From Caballeronia turbans (GTDB taxonomy: Bacteria; Pseudomonadota; Gammaproteobacteria; Burkholderiales; Burkholderiaceae): a stretch of DNA of 64,000 bases. Positions within the stretch are counted from its first letter, which is position 1. Every line of letters starts with the position of its first letter. The stretch spans positions 393,023-457,022 of the forward strand of contig FCOD02000003.1 in assembly GCA_001544655.2 (NCBI GenBank). Reading direction: 5' to 3'. Positions 31,438 to 34,498 of the stretch are shown in pieces. The notes beneath the pieces were generated by a model. That model worked only from the letters and a program-made list of their open reading frames with translations, did no database searches and had not been told where the DNA came from. Both the position numbers and the translations under genes were made by a program.

Positions 31438-33090
31438 TCAGGCTTCTACGGCTTCGTCCTGCCGCACATTCTCTGCGACGCGCCCGGAGCGGTTCACTGC
31501 GCTCACGACCGCATCGGCGACTGCGAGCGCCGGATTCGCATGTACGGCGACGCCGAAGCGCGTCTGGCCCTCGCCGACGCGGCAGCCGACGAACGCCGCC
31601 GTGTCGCCGCTCGCCGTCACGGCCGTCTCGAACCAGTTCACGTTCGCGTCCACGCCGAGCGCTGCGGCGACCGTCTGCGCGTAGGCATCGCCGCTCATCG
31701 TGCTCGCCGGCGGTGCAACCGTGACGCGCTTTCCGAACACCGACAACGTCGATACATCGACCCGCGAAACCGGCCCGCCGGCATCGAAATATTCGCGCTT
31801 GAAGAGCTCGCAGATCGCGTCGCCGCCGATTTCGGCGCCGGATGCATCGGTGATCTGCTGCACGGCGTGGCTGAACTCGATCTGCACGCGGCGCGGCGGC
31901 GTGAAGCCGAGCCCGCGTTCGAGCAGAAAAGTCGAGCCGCCCTTGCCGGACTGGCTGTTCACGCGAATCACGGCATCGTAGCTGCGGCCGAGATCGGCGG
32001 GATCGATCGGCAAATAGGGCACTTCCCACATCGTGCCTGGCACGCGCTGCGCGAGACCCTTGCGGATCGCGTCCTGATGCGAACCCGAAAATGCGGTGAA
32101 CACGAGGTCGCCCGCATACGGATGACGCGGATGCACCGGAATCTGGTTGCAGCGCTCGACGACGCGGCGCACGGCGTCGATATCGGAGAAATCGAGCCCC
32201 GGGTCGATGCCCTGCGTGTAGAGATTCATCGCGAGCGTGACGAGATCGACATTGCCGGTGCGCTCGCCATTGCCGAAAAGACATCCTTCGATGCGGTCCG
32301 CGCCCGCGAGCACCGCCATTTCCGCCGCGGCGACCGCCGTGCCGCGATCGTTATGCGGATGCACTGACAGCACGATGCTGTCGCGAAAGCCCATGTTGCG
32401 GTCCATCCACTCGACCTGATCGGCGAACACGTTGGGCATCGCGGCTTCGACCGTCGCGGGCAGGTTCACGATCATCTTGTGATCGGGCGTCGGACGCCAC
32501 ATTTGCGCGACCGCGTCGCACACTTCCCGCGCGAACGGCAACTCCGTCATGCTGAAGGTCTCGGGCGAGTATTGATAGATCCAGTGCGTTTGAGGCCGCG
32601 CGGCCGCGCATTCCTTGATGAGGCGCGTGCCTTCGACGGCGAGCGCCTTCACTTCGTCCTTCGACTGATTGAACACGATCTTGCGGAACGACGGCGCGAT
32701 CGCGTTATAGAGATGCACGATCACCTTGCTCGCGCCCTCGACCGCTTCGAACGTGCGCTCGATCAGCTCGCGGCGCGACTGCACGAGCACTTCGATGGTC
32801 ACGTCATCCGGAATGCGCTTTTCGTCGATCAACTTGCGCACGAAATCGAAATCGGTCTGCGACGCCGACGGGAATCCCACCTCGATTTCCTTGAACCCGA
32901 TTTTCACCAGCATCTCGAAGAACTCGAGCTTCGCAGCAATGCTCATCGGTTCGATGAGCGACTGGTTGCCATCGCGCAGATCGGTGCTCATCCAGATGGG
33001 CGCCTTCTCGATCGTGCGGGTCGGCCAGCGACGGCCATTCAGACGGACTTGCGGAAACGGGCGGTATTTCTCGGCGGGGTTCGGCATCAT
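31438..33090 (-). CDS. leuA: 2-Isopropylmalate synthase
   Basis: A 550-residue enzyme that condenses acetyl-CoA with 2-oxoisovalerate, the first step of leucine synthesis. It is the long LeuA type: the HMGL-like barrel (about 30-310) begins with [11 protein letters not shown] and contains [10 protein letters not shown] for metal binding; the C-terminal regulatory domain (about 430-550) should bind leucine for feedback inhibition. The ATG pair at 33090/33087 gives two possible starts. A 415-base leader separates it from ybiB and contains a candidate leucine attenuator. Confidence 0.95.
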
Positions 33091-33394
33091 GATCGTCGAT
33101 CTCTCTTCGGACAGTTTGCGTAGCGCCTGCGAGAGAGGCCGTGTCCGGCGGCTGGCCGGGCGTGGCGGGATGCACGTGAGACGGAGCGGCGCGCGCGTGT
33201 CCCGGAATCACCAGCGACGGTGACGCCTGTGACCAACGTGAACGTGCGCGGAGCAACGTGCATTTGACCCTCGCGTTTCCGTTTCGCGGGATGCGCGAAC
33301 GAAAAGCTGACGACTACAGGTGGTAAGAAAAGGAACTACTGGGACTTCTGGCAGGACCGGGCGCCTTGCGACGCGCGGCGCTACATCTGGCGAC
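33091..33394 (-). promoter_or_regulatory. leuA leader region downstream of the leader peptide
   Basis: Reading toward leuA, the region starts with a 14-bp hairpin (33379-33411 with one G-U and one mismatch) that begins inside the leader ORF, then a smaller GCGCC/GGCGC hairpin (about 33362-33381) and, about 30 bases on, the T-rich run CCTTTTCTT. I do not see a textbook terminator stem directly next to that run. No gene is supported in this 304-base stretch. Mutually exclusive folding is likely but needs calculation. Confidence 0.5.
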
Positions 33395-33472
33395 TTACGC
33401 TAGACGTAGCGATAGGGGCCGCGCTAGGCGGCCCGGAATAATTCGGAGGGAGGCGGGCTGGGTGAAACTCAT
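33395..33472 (-). CDS. Candidate leucine leader peptide (leuL-like)
   Basis: A 25-codon ORF in the leuA leader starts MSFTQPASL and ends in SLRLA. Five of its codons are leucine, and four of them, within the last ten codons, are CTA, which is rare in a genome this GC-rich. The stop codon lies in the loop of the hairpin at 33379-33411, so a ribosome stalled on the CTA codons would prevent that stem forming. This is the design of classical leucine attenuators. The start codon is almost at the predicted transcription start, so it may be translated without a leader. No ribosome-binding site is visible. Confidence 0.7.
   Translation of the reverse strand: MSFTQPASLRIIPGRLARPLSLRLA
33416..33434 (-). 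repeat. Hairpin within the leuA leader peptide ORF
   Basis: A perfect 7-bp inverted repeat (GGGCCGC at 33416-33422, complement at 33428-33434) lies in the middle of the leader ORF, upstream of the larger hairpin. It could act as the first, pausing hairpin of an attenuator. Confidence 0.5.
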
Positions 33473-33481
33473 GTAGTCGAC

Positions 33482-33509
33482 TTTAAACCACCGTTGAATA
33501 GCGTGTCAA
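33482..33509 (-). promoter_or_regulatory. Promoter of the leuA leader
   Basis: On the minus strand a perfect -35 TTGACA (33504-33509) is followed after 16 bases by TTTAAA (33482-33487), a 4/6 match to the -10. It overlaps the stop codon of ybiB. Transcription would start near 33474-33475, two or three bases before the leader peptide ATG. Confidence 0.7.
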
Positions 33510-34498
33510 ATGGGATTTGCCTGACCGACAGCTGGTTTACGCACCACATTGGCAATCACTTCGACCTGGCGCGTGACCGCGGGCGGCACCGGCACGTCGC
33601 CGCGCAGCACGCATTCGATCCACCGCGCGGTGGTCGCTGCGTCGAGGGTGTCGGGCAGGTCGACCGGAGGCGTGTGCGGCTGAGAGTGCTCGGGCGTGAT
33701 CAGCGTCTCGACGTGGCCGTCGTGGAACCAGTCGACCTGCACCTGGCGGCGCGTGTCCGCGACGGCTTCGCCTTCGGTGCCGCGCGCGAGCAGTGCGCCG
33801 CCCGCCGCCGCGTCCGGGTGCTCGGTGAAAAGTCCGGTGAGGCTCTCGCGATACTCGGGATGCGTGTAGTTGACGAGCCTCAGGCCCGGCTCGGCGAAGG
33901 GCTGAAGGATCTTCACGAGCGTGTGCGTCGAATTGCGCACGCCCATGCGGCGTCTCAGCGCCAGCAGCCGCGCGAGCTTGGGCGCGAGCACGGCGATCGG
34001 CGCGAATGCGAGACGGCGCGACGCGAGGCTGTCTTCGATTTCATCGTGTGAAGCCGCGTGCGCGATACCCAGTTCGGCGAAAATCGCGGCGCTCGTGACG
34101 CGGCCCGGATCGTCGGTGACACCGTGCACCAGCACCGGCACGCCTTCGCGCGCAAGCAAGAGCGACAACAGCGGCACGAGATTCGGCGTCTTGCGTGCGC
34201 CGTTGTAGCTCGGAATCGACACGGGCCGCGCGTGCTCTCGTCCATCCTGGACATGCAGCGGCTCGAACGAGCGATGCGCGGCGGATAGCATGGCGGCGAG
34301 CTCGGCGGCAGTTTCGCCCTTGACGCGATAGGCGAGCAGTACCGCGCCGAGTTCGAGTTCAGAGACGCGATCCTCGAGTATCGCTTCGTAGAGCGCATAG
34401 GTGTCGTCGTGCGAGAGGGCGCGCGCGCCGTTCGGCCCGCGGCCGATTTCCTTGATATAACGCGCGCAGTTGAAAGCGGGGGGAGCGGAGTCGGTCAT
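33506..34498 (-). CDS. ybiB: YbiB family protein, TrpD2-like
   Basis: A 330-residue relative of anthranilate phosphoribosyltransferase. The helical N-terminal domain (YIKEIGRGPNGARALSHDD) and the central VPVLVHGVTDDPGRV region keep the TrpD fold, but the classic PRPP glycine motif is altered, as in TrpD2/YbiB proteins. YbiB of E. coli binds DNA and RNA without sequence preference and was linked to the LexA/SOS response; the role here is inferred. Its 3' end carries the leuA leader promoter. Confidence 0.88.
   Translation of the reverse strand: MTDSAPPAFNCARYIKEIGRGPNGARALSHDDTYALYEAILEDRVSELELGAVLLAYRVKGETAAELAAMLSAAHRSFEPLHVQDGREHARPVSIPSYNGARKTPNLVPLLSLLLAREGVPVLVHGVTDDPGRVTSAAIFAELGIAHAASHDEIEDSLASRRLAFAPIAVLAPKLARLLALRRRMGVRNSTHTLVKILQPFAEPGLRLVNYTHPEYRESLTGLFTEHPDAAAGGALLARGTEGEAVADTRRQVQVDWFHDGHVETLITPEHSQPHTPPVDLPDTLDAATTARWIECVLRGDVPVPPAVTRQVEVIANVVRKPAVGQANPI

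Follow-up and report, generated by a model that had tools for sequence, protein, structure and literature searches.

The window (the whole 64,000-nt stretch of DNA analysed, from Caballeronia turbans) contains, on its minus strand, a leuA gene preceded by a promoter, a short ORF rich in CTA leucine codons (ORF 1), hairpins a, b and H3, a linker, hairpin H4 and a second ORF (ORF 2) that overlaps leuA (Table 1). The original prediction, which saw a candidate leaderless leucine attenuator here, had described a TTGACA −35 hexamer on the minus strand upstream of a 25-codon ORF with four CTA triplets among its last ten codons. Both were found: the hexamer is in place and, in an ORF whose ATG starts at 33472 and whose TAA ends at 33395, codons 16, 20, 22 and 24 are CTA. 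The promoter indeed lies just before this ATG, but the transcription start proposed two or three bases upstream of it was not borne out, the better −10 hexamer, TAAAGT, implying a distance of 0 or 1; from promoter geometry, the expected +1 of the leader is the ATG itself or one base earlier. ORF 2 and H4, absent from that prediction, are also part of the conserved leader.

Table 1. Features of the leuA leader and its surroundings (coordinates are those of the window)
Feature	Coordinates	Strand	Remarks
ybiB-like gene	33506-34498		Upstream of the leuA leader
−35 hexamer, TTGACA	33504-33509	(−)	Overlaps the TGA stop of the upstream ybiB-like gene
−10 hexamer, TAAAGT	33480-33485	(−)	18-nt spacer; 7 nt separate it from the leader ATG
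Leader ORF 1, MSFTQPASLRIIPGRLARPLSLRLA	33395-33472	(−)	25 codons plus TAA; leaderless as judged by geometry
Hairpin a, GGGCCGC/GCGGCCC	33416-33434	(−)	Within ORF 1; loop holds the first CTA
Hairpin b	33379-33411	(−)	Stop codon in loop; 5′ arm formed by the last Ser-Leu-Arg-Leu codons
Hairpin H3 (CCGCGCG...CGCCCGG)	33357-33378	(−)	Immediately 3′ of hairpin b
C/T-rich, G-poor linker	33315-33356	(−)	Candidate Rho loading stretch
Hairpin H4	33276-33305	(−)	Followed by SD-like GCGAGG (33269-33274)
ORF 2	33087-33263	(−)	58 codons plus TGA; the TGA overlaps the leuA ATG (ATGA)
leuA	31438-33090	(−)	2-isopropylmalate synthase, 550 aa, long form; NCBIfam PRK03739 / leuA_yeast

CTA had been called very rare in this DNA, and in the 42 long ORFs of the window it makes up 31 of 1594 leucine codons (1.9%). 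Among the 613 ATG ORFs of 10–45 codons on both strands of the window, only ORF 1 exceeds two CTA codons. The RNA from 33472 to 33291 gave a folding z-score of −2.49, with 1/200 shuffles equally stable, and the CTA codons of ORF 1 sit in predicted hairpins a and b. Hairpin a corresponds to the further stem that the original prediction placed inside the ORF. The stop codon had been predicted, too, to fall in the loop of a 14-bp hairpin. It does lie in the loop of hairpin b, but the stem, which is interrupted by an internal mismatch, counts 12 pairs in the minimum-energy structure and 13 in the centroid. The 1:2 hairpin of trp leaders likewise holds a stop codon in its loop. By eye, a stop codon within a hairpin loop could be discerned in other genera too (L078, L084 and L087).

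A DNA search gave a match in each of the 36 further genomes sampled from the genus, and in 0/24 genomes of other families. The 25-codon ORF 1 with its four CTA codons was intact in 33 of these 36 relatives (34 of the 37 aligned leaders, counting the window). Loss of the CTA codons in close relatives, an outcome that had been named as evidence against the prediction, was seen only in L024, L025 and L038, all with small genomes (4.2, 3.7 and 2.8 Mb, respectively); L013 and L015 keep ORF 1 despite genomes of 2.4 Mb (60% complete) and 3.9 Mb. In one relative (L031, G006:C28), a second, partial leader was observed together with a leuA start; it has H4, the Shine-Dalgarno (SD) sequence and the start of ORF 2, and ORF 1 is absent. 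Within the genus, conservation of the leader extends to its nucleotides, even at synonymous sites, and the downstream hairpins are kept, as might be expected if it were maintained as a structured RNA, a small RNA or a DNA element in which the ORF is incidental. We regard this explanation as very improbable: across genera the sequence is unrelated, yet the CTA-rich ORF, the start-codon geometry and the link to leuA persist, and in the 59 leaders of the window type the length of ORF 1 varies by whole codons (23–25).

The wider distribution of such leaders was analysed by searching for the LeuA N-terminus, which gave matches in 92/100 family genomes; 79 of the matches listed were strong (E < 1e-50). 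In the 480 nt upstream of 63 strong matches, the window included, an ATG ORF of 8–45 codons with at least three CTA was present in 53/63 regions; as controls, the reverse complements gave 0/63, and of 3150 shuffles ∼0.25% had such an ORF. The family loci are not independent, since many share a genus. The ten family loci with fewer than three CTA codons were L072–L076, L091, L095 and L097–L099, some of which have a leader that begins differently or uses other leucine codons. At the order level, a match at E up to 1e-30 was found in 24/80 genomes, the window genome included; among the 23 other loci, four or more CTA codons occur in a leader ORF of L221, L223 and L230, several more loci have a leucine-dense ORF, and others are without any. 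A scan of genome contigs with the core pattern CTAYCGCTACGNCTAGCNTAA returned at least 119 matching stretches, which are no evidence of CTA conservation because the pattern itself includes three CTA codons. In 113 of the 119 listed, leuA follows on the same strand, 175–368 nt downstream; in the remaining six (L120, L189, L195, L200, L210 and L212) no leuA was detectable within the 4–396 nt of flank. Many of the CTA-rich leader peptides are mutually unrelated, which indicates that the rare codon, and not the peptide, is what is conserved.

Promoter position was compared in 60 leader ORFs with at least three CTA codons, taken from the 63 family and 23 order-level loci. When the motif TTGA[CT] was sought 30–43 nt upstream of the leader ATG, it was found 36, 37 or 39 nt before it in 53/60; the seven without it at that distance were the second leaders of L059, L061 and L071, those of L079 and L080, and both leaders of L221. 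An SD-like motif was seen in 1/60. A start codon at +1 demands a fixed distance from the −35 hexamer to the ATG. Comparison and promoter geometry thus agree on the central part of the original prediction, a leaderless leucine-codon leader peptide tied to leuA, and the view that this gene is preceded by a leaderless leucine-sensing leader is, as judged from sequence, well supported. To our knowledge, an RNA that begins with the start codon has seldom been described for leaders of this kind.

The genome has a second leuA (TIGR00973; G000:C75:41556-43046), distantly related to the first. Its leader, MNFFPFPSSLFPAGASLHALSLLARLPR (L253; G000:C75:43189-43272, outside the window), uses CTA for five of its six leucines; a TATAGT hexamer 6 nt before its ATG puts +1 at the ATG, and this leader too is apparently leaderless. 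It was matched at E up to 10 in 30/31 genomes of the genus, the window's own included, the weakest of these matches being unconvincing alone. In the upstream regions of two leuC and two ilvB genes, short ORFs had at most one CTA each. The CTA codons of ORF 1 lie within or beside hairpins a and b, and TAG-containing arms pair with CTA, so that these codons might be a by-product of the hairpin sequences with no sensor involved; since CTA-rich leaders recur with other hairpins, and before a second leuA that is no close relation of the first, we rate this the least probable of the explanations weighed here, and highly improbable in itself.

Two CTA-bearing ORFs precede leuA in L059, L061, L071, L062 and L221. 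The leuA-proximal leader ends in L-P-I-G in several genera, in some with a GGTTGCC that forms an arm of a further hairpin. Among tandem leaders, the second was seen to end in LPIG in three, and that of L221 abuts a GGTTGCC...GGCAACC hairpin. Four genomes were also noted to carry two long-form leuA genes, each with a different leucine leader ORF: L063/L081 (G091), L056/L089 (G107), L060/L090 (G123) and L061/L097 (G075); the leader ORF of L097 has 2 CTA only.

In the sequence comparison, hairpin b covaries through a synonymous Arg codon position. The last two CTA codons flank an Arg codon, the third base of which is paired in 104 of 112 distinct leaders (T-A in 45, A-T in 25, T-G in 25 and C-G in 9) and unpaired in 8; most of these leaders were gathered with a pattern in which this position is free but the bases around it are set. 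Over the arms as a whole, 91.4% of positions are paired among 29 distinct arm pairs, and 0/2000 re-dealings of the 3′ arms matched the observed pairing, by a statistic that ignores relatedness. In hairpin a, two-sided pair changes were discernible by eye among the leaders. An RNAalifold consensus of 59 leaders recovered a, b and H3, its 3′ part being poorly aligned.

The original prediction conceded that a textbook terminator was lacking. In agreement with this, the intrinsic terminator scan, run without a shuffle control, accepted 0/8 loci of the window genus, and 0/7 of g35, 0/7 of g49, 0/3 of g40 and 0/3 of g39; no hairpin lies directly before the T-rich run near 33330. Strong terminators with a full U run were found in g45 (2/2 loci) and g46 (1/1). 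Hits that were weaker or lay elsewhere came from g48 (4/4, mostly the stop-codon hairpin and then TCTCTTTCC), g32 (2/2), g37 (2/3, one over the promoter), g34 (2/4), g27 (1/4), g44 (1/5), g41 (1/1) and g29 (1/1). At the order level the scan was positive in 6/23 loci. A classic terminator, CCTCGGC...GCCGAGGTTTTTT, follows the leucine leader in L091, L096 and L098, which belong to two small-genome genera. These true terminators in relatives would fit a classical attenuator whose intrinsic terminator was overlooked by the scan, for instance H3 followed by UCCUGCC, as would the position of H3, adjoining hairpin b like a 2:3 or 3:4 stem, and locus L053 (g37), a leader of the same type in which a long hairpin spanning the H3 region, with TTTCCGTTT behind it, passes the scan. 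However, with all 8 scanned loci of the genus failing and the T-rich run lacking an adjoining hairpin, an overlooked terminator is improbable.

Folding was then predicted with a ribosome placed at different points of the leader. In L091, when folding was predicted with a ribosome on the last CTA codon and before completion of the terminator, GCCGACGTTTG paired with the terminator 5′ arm, CAAACCTCGGC, the competing hairpin of classical attenuation; when the full-length RNA of L091 was folded, the terminator formed in both ribosome states. The same complementary words are present in L096 and L098, where their pairing is not clean in the predicted folds. A ribosome on the second to fourth CTA codon, or on the stop codon, was predicted to abolish hairpin b. 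Over 96 leaders (the 112 minus 16 with a landmark unlocated), ribosome placement took the predicted pairing of H3 from 0.65 to 0.57–0.66 and that of H4 from 0.62 to 0.56–0.64, and the unpaired fraction of the linker from 0.62 to 0.58–0.62 and of the SD from 0.17 to 0.17–0.19; in the window, the SD was predicted to be 0.06 unpaired, and 0.04–0.12 across ribosome positions. Downstream pairing is predicted to be nearly constant under ribosome placement, so that no structural readout emerges. The proposal that a stalled ribosome refolds the RNA to free leuA therefore fared poorly, in that only hairpin b is lost and downstream pairing, linker and SD barely shift; nor did the folding of alternative structures, suggested along with it, predict a switch in the window clade. 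For the window genus, neither the scan of 8 loci nor folding gave an antiterminator hairpin that competes with a terminator hairpin and its U run. Two other candidates were discarded. In the window, CCCTC within ORF 1 was predicted to pair with the SD of ORF 2, but by eye this pairing is not kept in other clades; the other was the output of a mutual-information scan for long-range helices in the 96 leaders, the signal of which was dominated by relatedness.

Behind H3, the linker measures 36–68 nt in the 96 leaders, with a mean of 37% C and 14.5% G, and its predicted unpaired fraction is ∼0.6. A 39-nt stretch of the window's linker has 12 C and 6 G; this C-richness is modest, 8.4% of window positions being equally C-over-G-rich and 1.3% equally G-poor. 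H4 is present in Burkholderia, Paraburkholderia, Trinickia and Caballeronia (46 distinct stretches, one Caballeronia clade being taken on a shortened stretch that folds weakly, at −2.8 to −9.8 kcal/mol). Its covariation was analysed in 29 distinct 43-nt stretches out of 43 distinct ones, other lengths and all Caballeronia forms being excluded. In these 29 the stem is kept, with 90.7% of cells paired versus 29.2–46.9% when slid, and covariation was not above shuffles (452/500 as high), four other measures behaving likewise.

ORF 2 follows H4 and GCGAGG in Caballeronia and many Paraburkholderia. In a set of 108 leaders that counts some genomes twice, its stop falls at most 22 nt short of, or 20 nt beyond, the first base of leuA in 54, mostly overlapping; it is open across the leuA start in 6 others, and by the pattern used there is none in 48, L062 being counted among the latter though ORF 2 is present there. 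B. cenocepacia, B. cepacia and B. seminalis are without ORF 2 by this pattern and keep H4. In L118, L143, L155 and L157, which lack the ORF 2 stretch, the H4 SD immediately precedes the start of leuA; on sequence grounds, it is thus very likely that this SD is used. The window ORF 2 was seen to have an SD upstream and a conserved run of its first 15 residues; since GC-rich DNA favours open frames, its openness weighs less. It may be the remnant of a second leucine leader, because ORF 2 of L062 begins alike and has two CTA codons.

A translational readout can be envisaged from this arrangement, in which transcription is not terminated and a ribosome on ORF 1 alters access to the H4 SD, and through it the translation of ORF 2 and of the overlapping leuA. 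The proximity of the ORF 2 stop to the leuA start in half of the 108 leaders, the four loci with leuA directly behind the H4 SD, and the predicted pairing of most of this SD are all consistent with such a route, as is the LEU element of Actinobacteria, for which pairing between a run of leucine codons and the leuA SD has been proposed (PMC1262725). However, the 48 leaders without ORF 2 by pattern, the three Burkholderia species just named among them, argue against it, and predicted SD openness hardly varies with ribosome position; we hold it to be unlikely, if worth keeping in view. The lack of a folding switch in the window clade favours premature termination and leaves the ORF 2 route as the main rival.

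The reading we prefer, and consider quite probable, is that the stretch is a leucine-sensing leader of leuA with a readout by premature, probably Rho-assisted termination, the latter being the most likely readout in the window clade. It builds on the promoter and start-codon geometry, the rare-codon ORF, the link to leuA and hairpin b, all of which are seen in the DNA of the window and its relatives. RNA polymerase would start at the ATG of ORF 1, so that ribosomes would load on a leaderless transcript and translation would set in immediately behind the polymerase. When leucine is plentiful, the ribosome would clear the CTA codons and depart at the stop codon within hairpin b; the RNA downstream would then be untranslated, and most transcripts would terminate before leuA. 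In the window clade, Rho would likely help by acting on the C-rich linker, and H4 would mark the 3′ end. When leucyl-tRNA for CTA is scarce, the ribosome would pause on the CTA codons, hairpin b would stay open and leuA would be transcribed.

Parts of this arrangement are already known, namely CTA leucine leaders, leaderless trpL leader peptides and, in Actinobacteria, non-classical leucine leaders of leuA. The works of Vitreschak 2004 and Lopatovskaya 2010 are said to be comparative surveys of attenuators. In the enterobacterial leuL attenuator, too, a short peptide with rare CTA codons is encoded in the leader of genes for leucine biosynthesis; unlike leuL, the window ORF is leaderless by its geometry and comes without an intrinsic terminator. 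The Rfam family for the enterobacterial leu leader is presumably Leu_leader; Rfam gave no match at gathering score in the stretch, and none at E up to 10 in 33080-33520. The Salmonella leu leader has three CUA codons, the replacement of which by CUG lowers its sensitivity, as described in PMC1183508. In Sinorhizobium meliloti trpL, the attenuator RNA begins at the leader peptide ATG (PMC7298713). The leader ORF ATG is the RNA start there, as predicted for the window from promoter geometry, whereas trpL has Trp codons and a terminator, and the window leader has Leu codons and no terminator that could be found. The LEU element before leuA in Actinobacteria, which has a pseudoknot, is similar-looking, although the bacteria are unrelated; codon changes in that leader did not give the result expected from classical attenuation (PMC1262725), which counts against the reading preferred here. 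Among relatives, L091, L096 and L098 have a leucine leader ORF before the same gene, and in L096 the −35 and the ATG are spaced as they are here. Their clear terminator was not seen in the window genus, and nor was the competing hairpin of L091. In the titles and abstract openings of the open-licence PMC papers listed, a leucine leader of leuA in Burkholderiales is unnamed, an earlier mention being possible, and neither of two papers on the B. cenocepacia transcriptome (PMC4603805 and PMC5688073) has the word leuA in its main text. The B. cenocepacia RNA ncS18 was considered as a leuA leader and rejected, its neighbour BCAL2714 being listed among ribosomal protein genes.

More broadly, leuA of Burkholderiales may be under a widespread family of leaderless leucine leaders, doubled in several lineages and without an intrinsic terminator in the Burkholderia/Paraburkholderia/Caballeronia clade, where Rho or a leuA-coupled ORF 2 would provide the readout; we advance this generalization tentatively, as a real possibility about which we are still somewhat doubtful. 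If true, leucine control of this type would extend across a large part of a bacterial order, with no Rfam match in the window, and leaderless initiation would belong to the workings of a nutrient sensor. Within one genome, separate but alike leaders would serve two distantly related leuA genes, and the loci, some with a classic terminator and some without, some with one leader and some with two, would form a natural series in which to study the gain and loss of attenuator readout.
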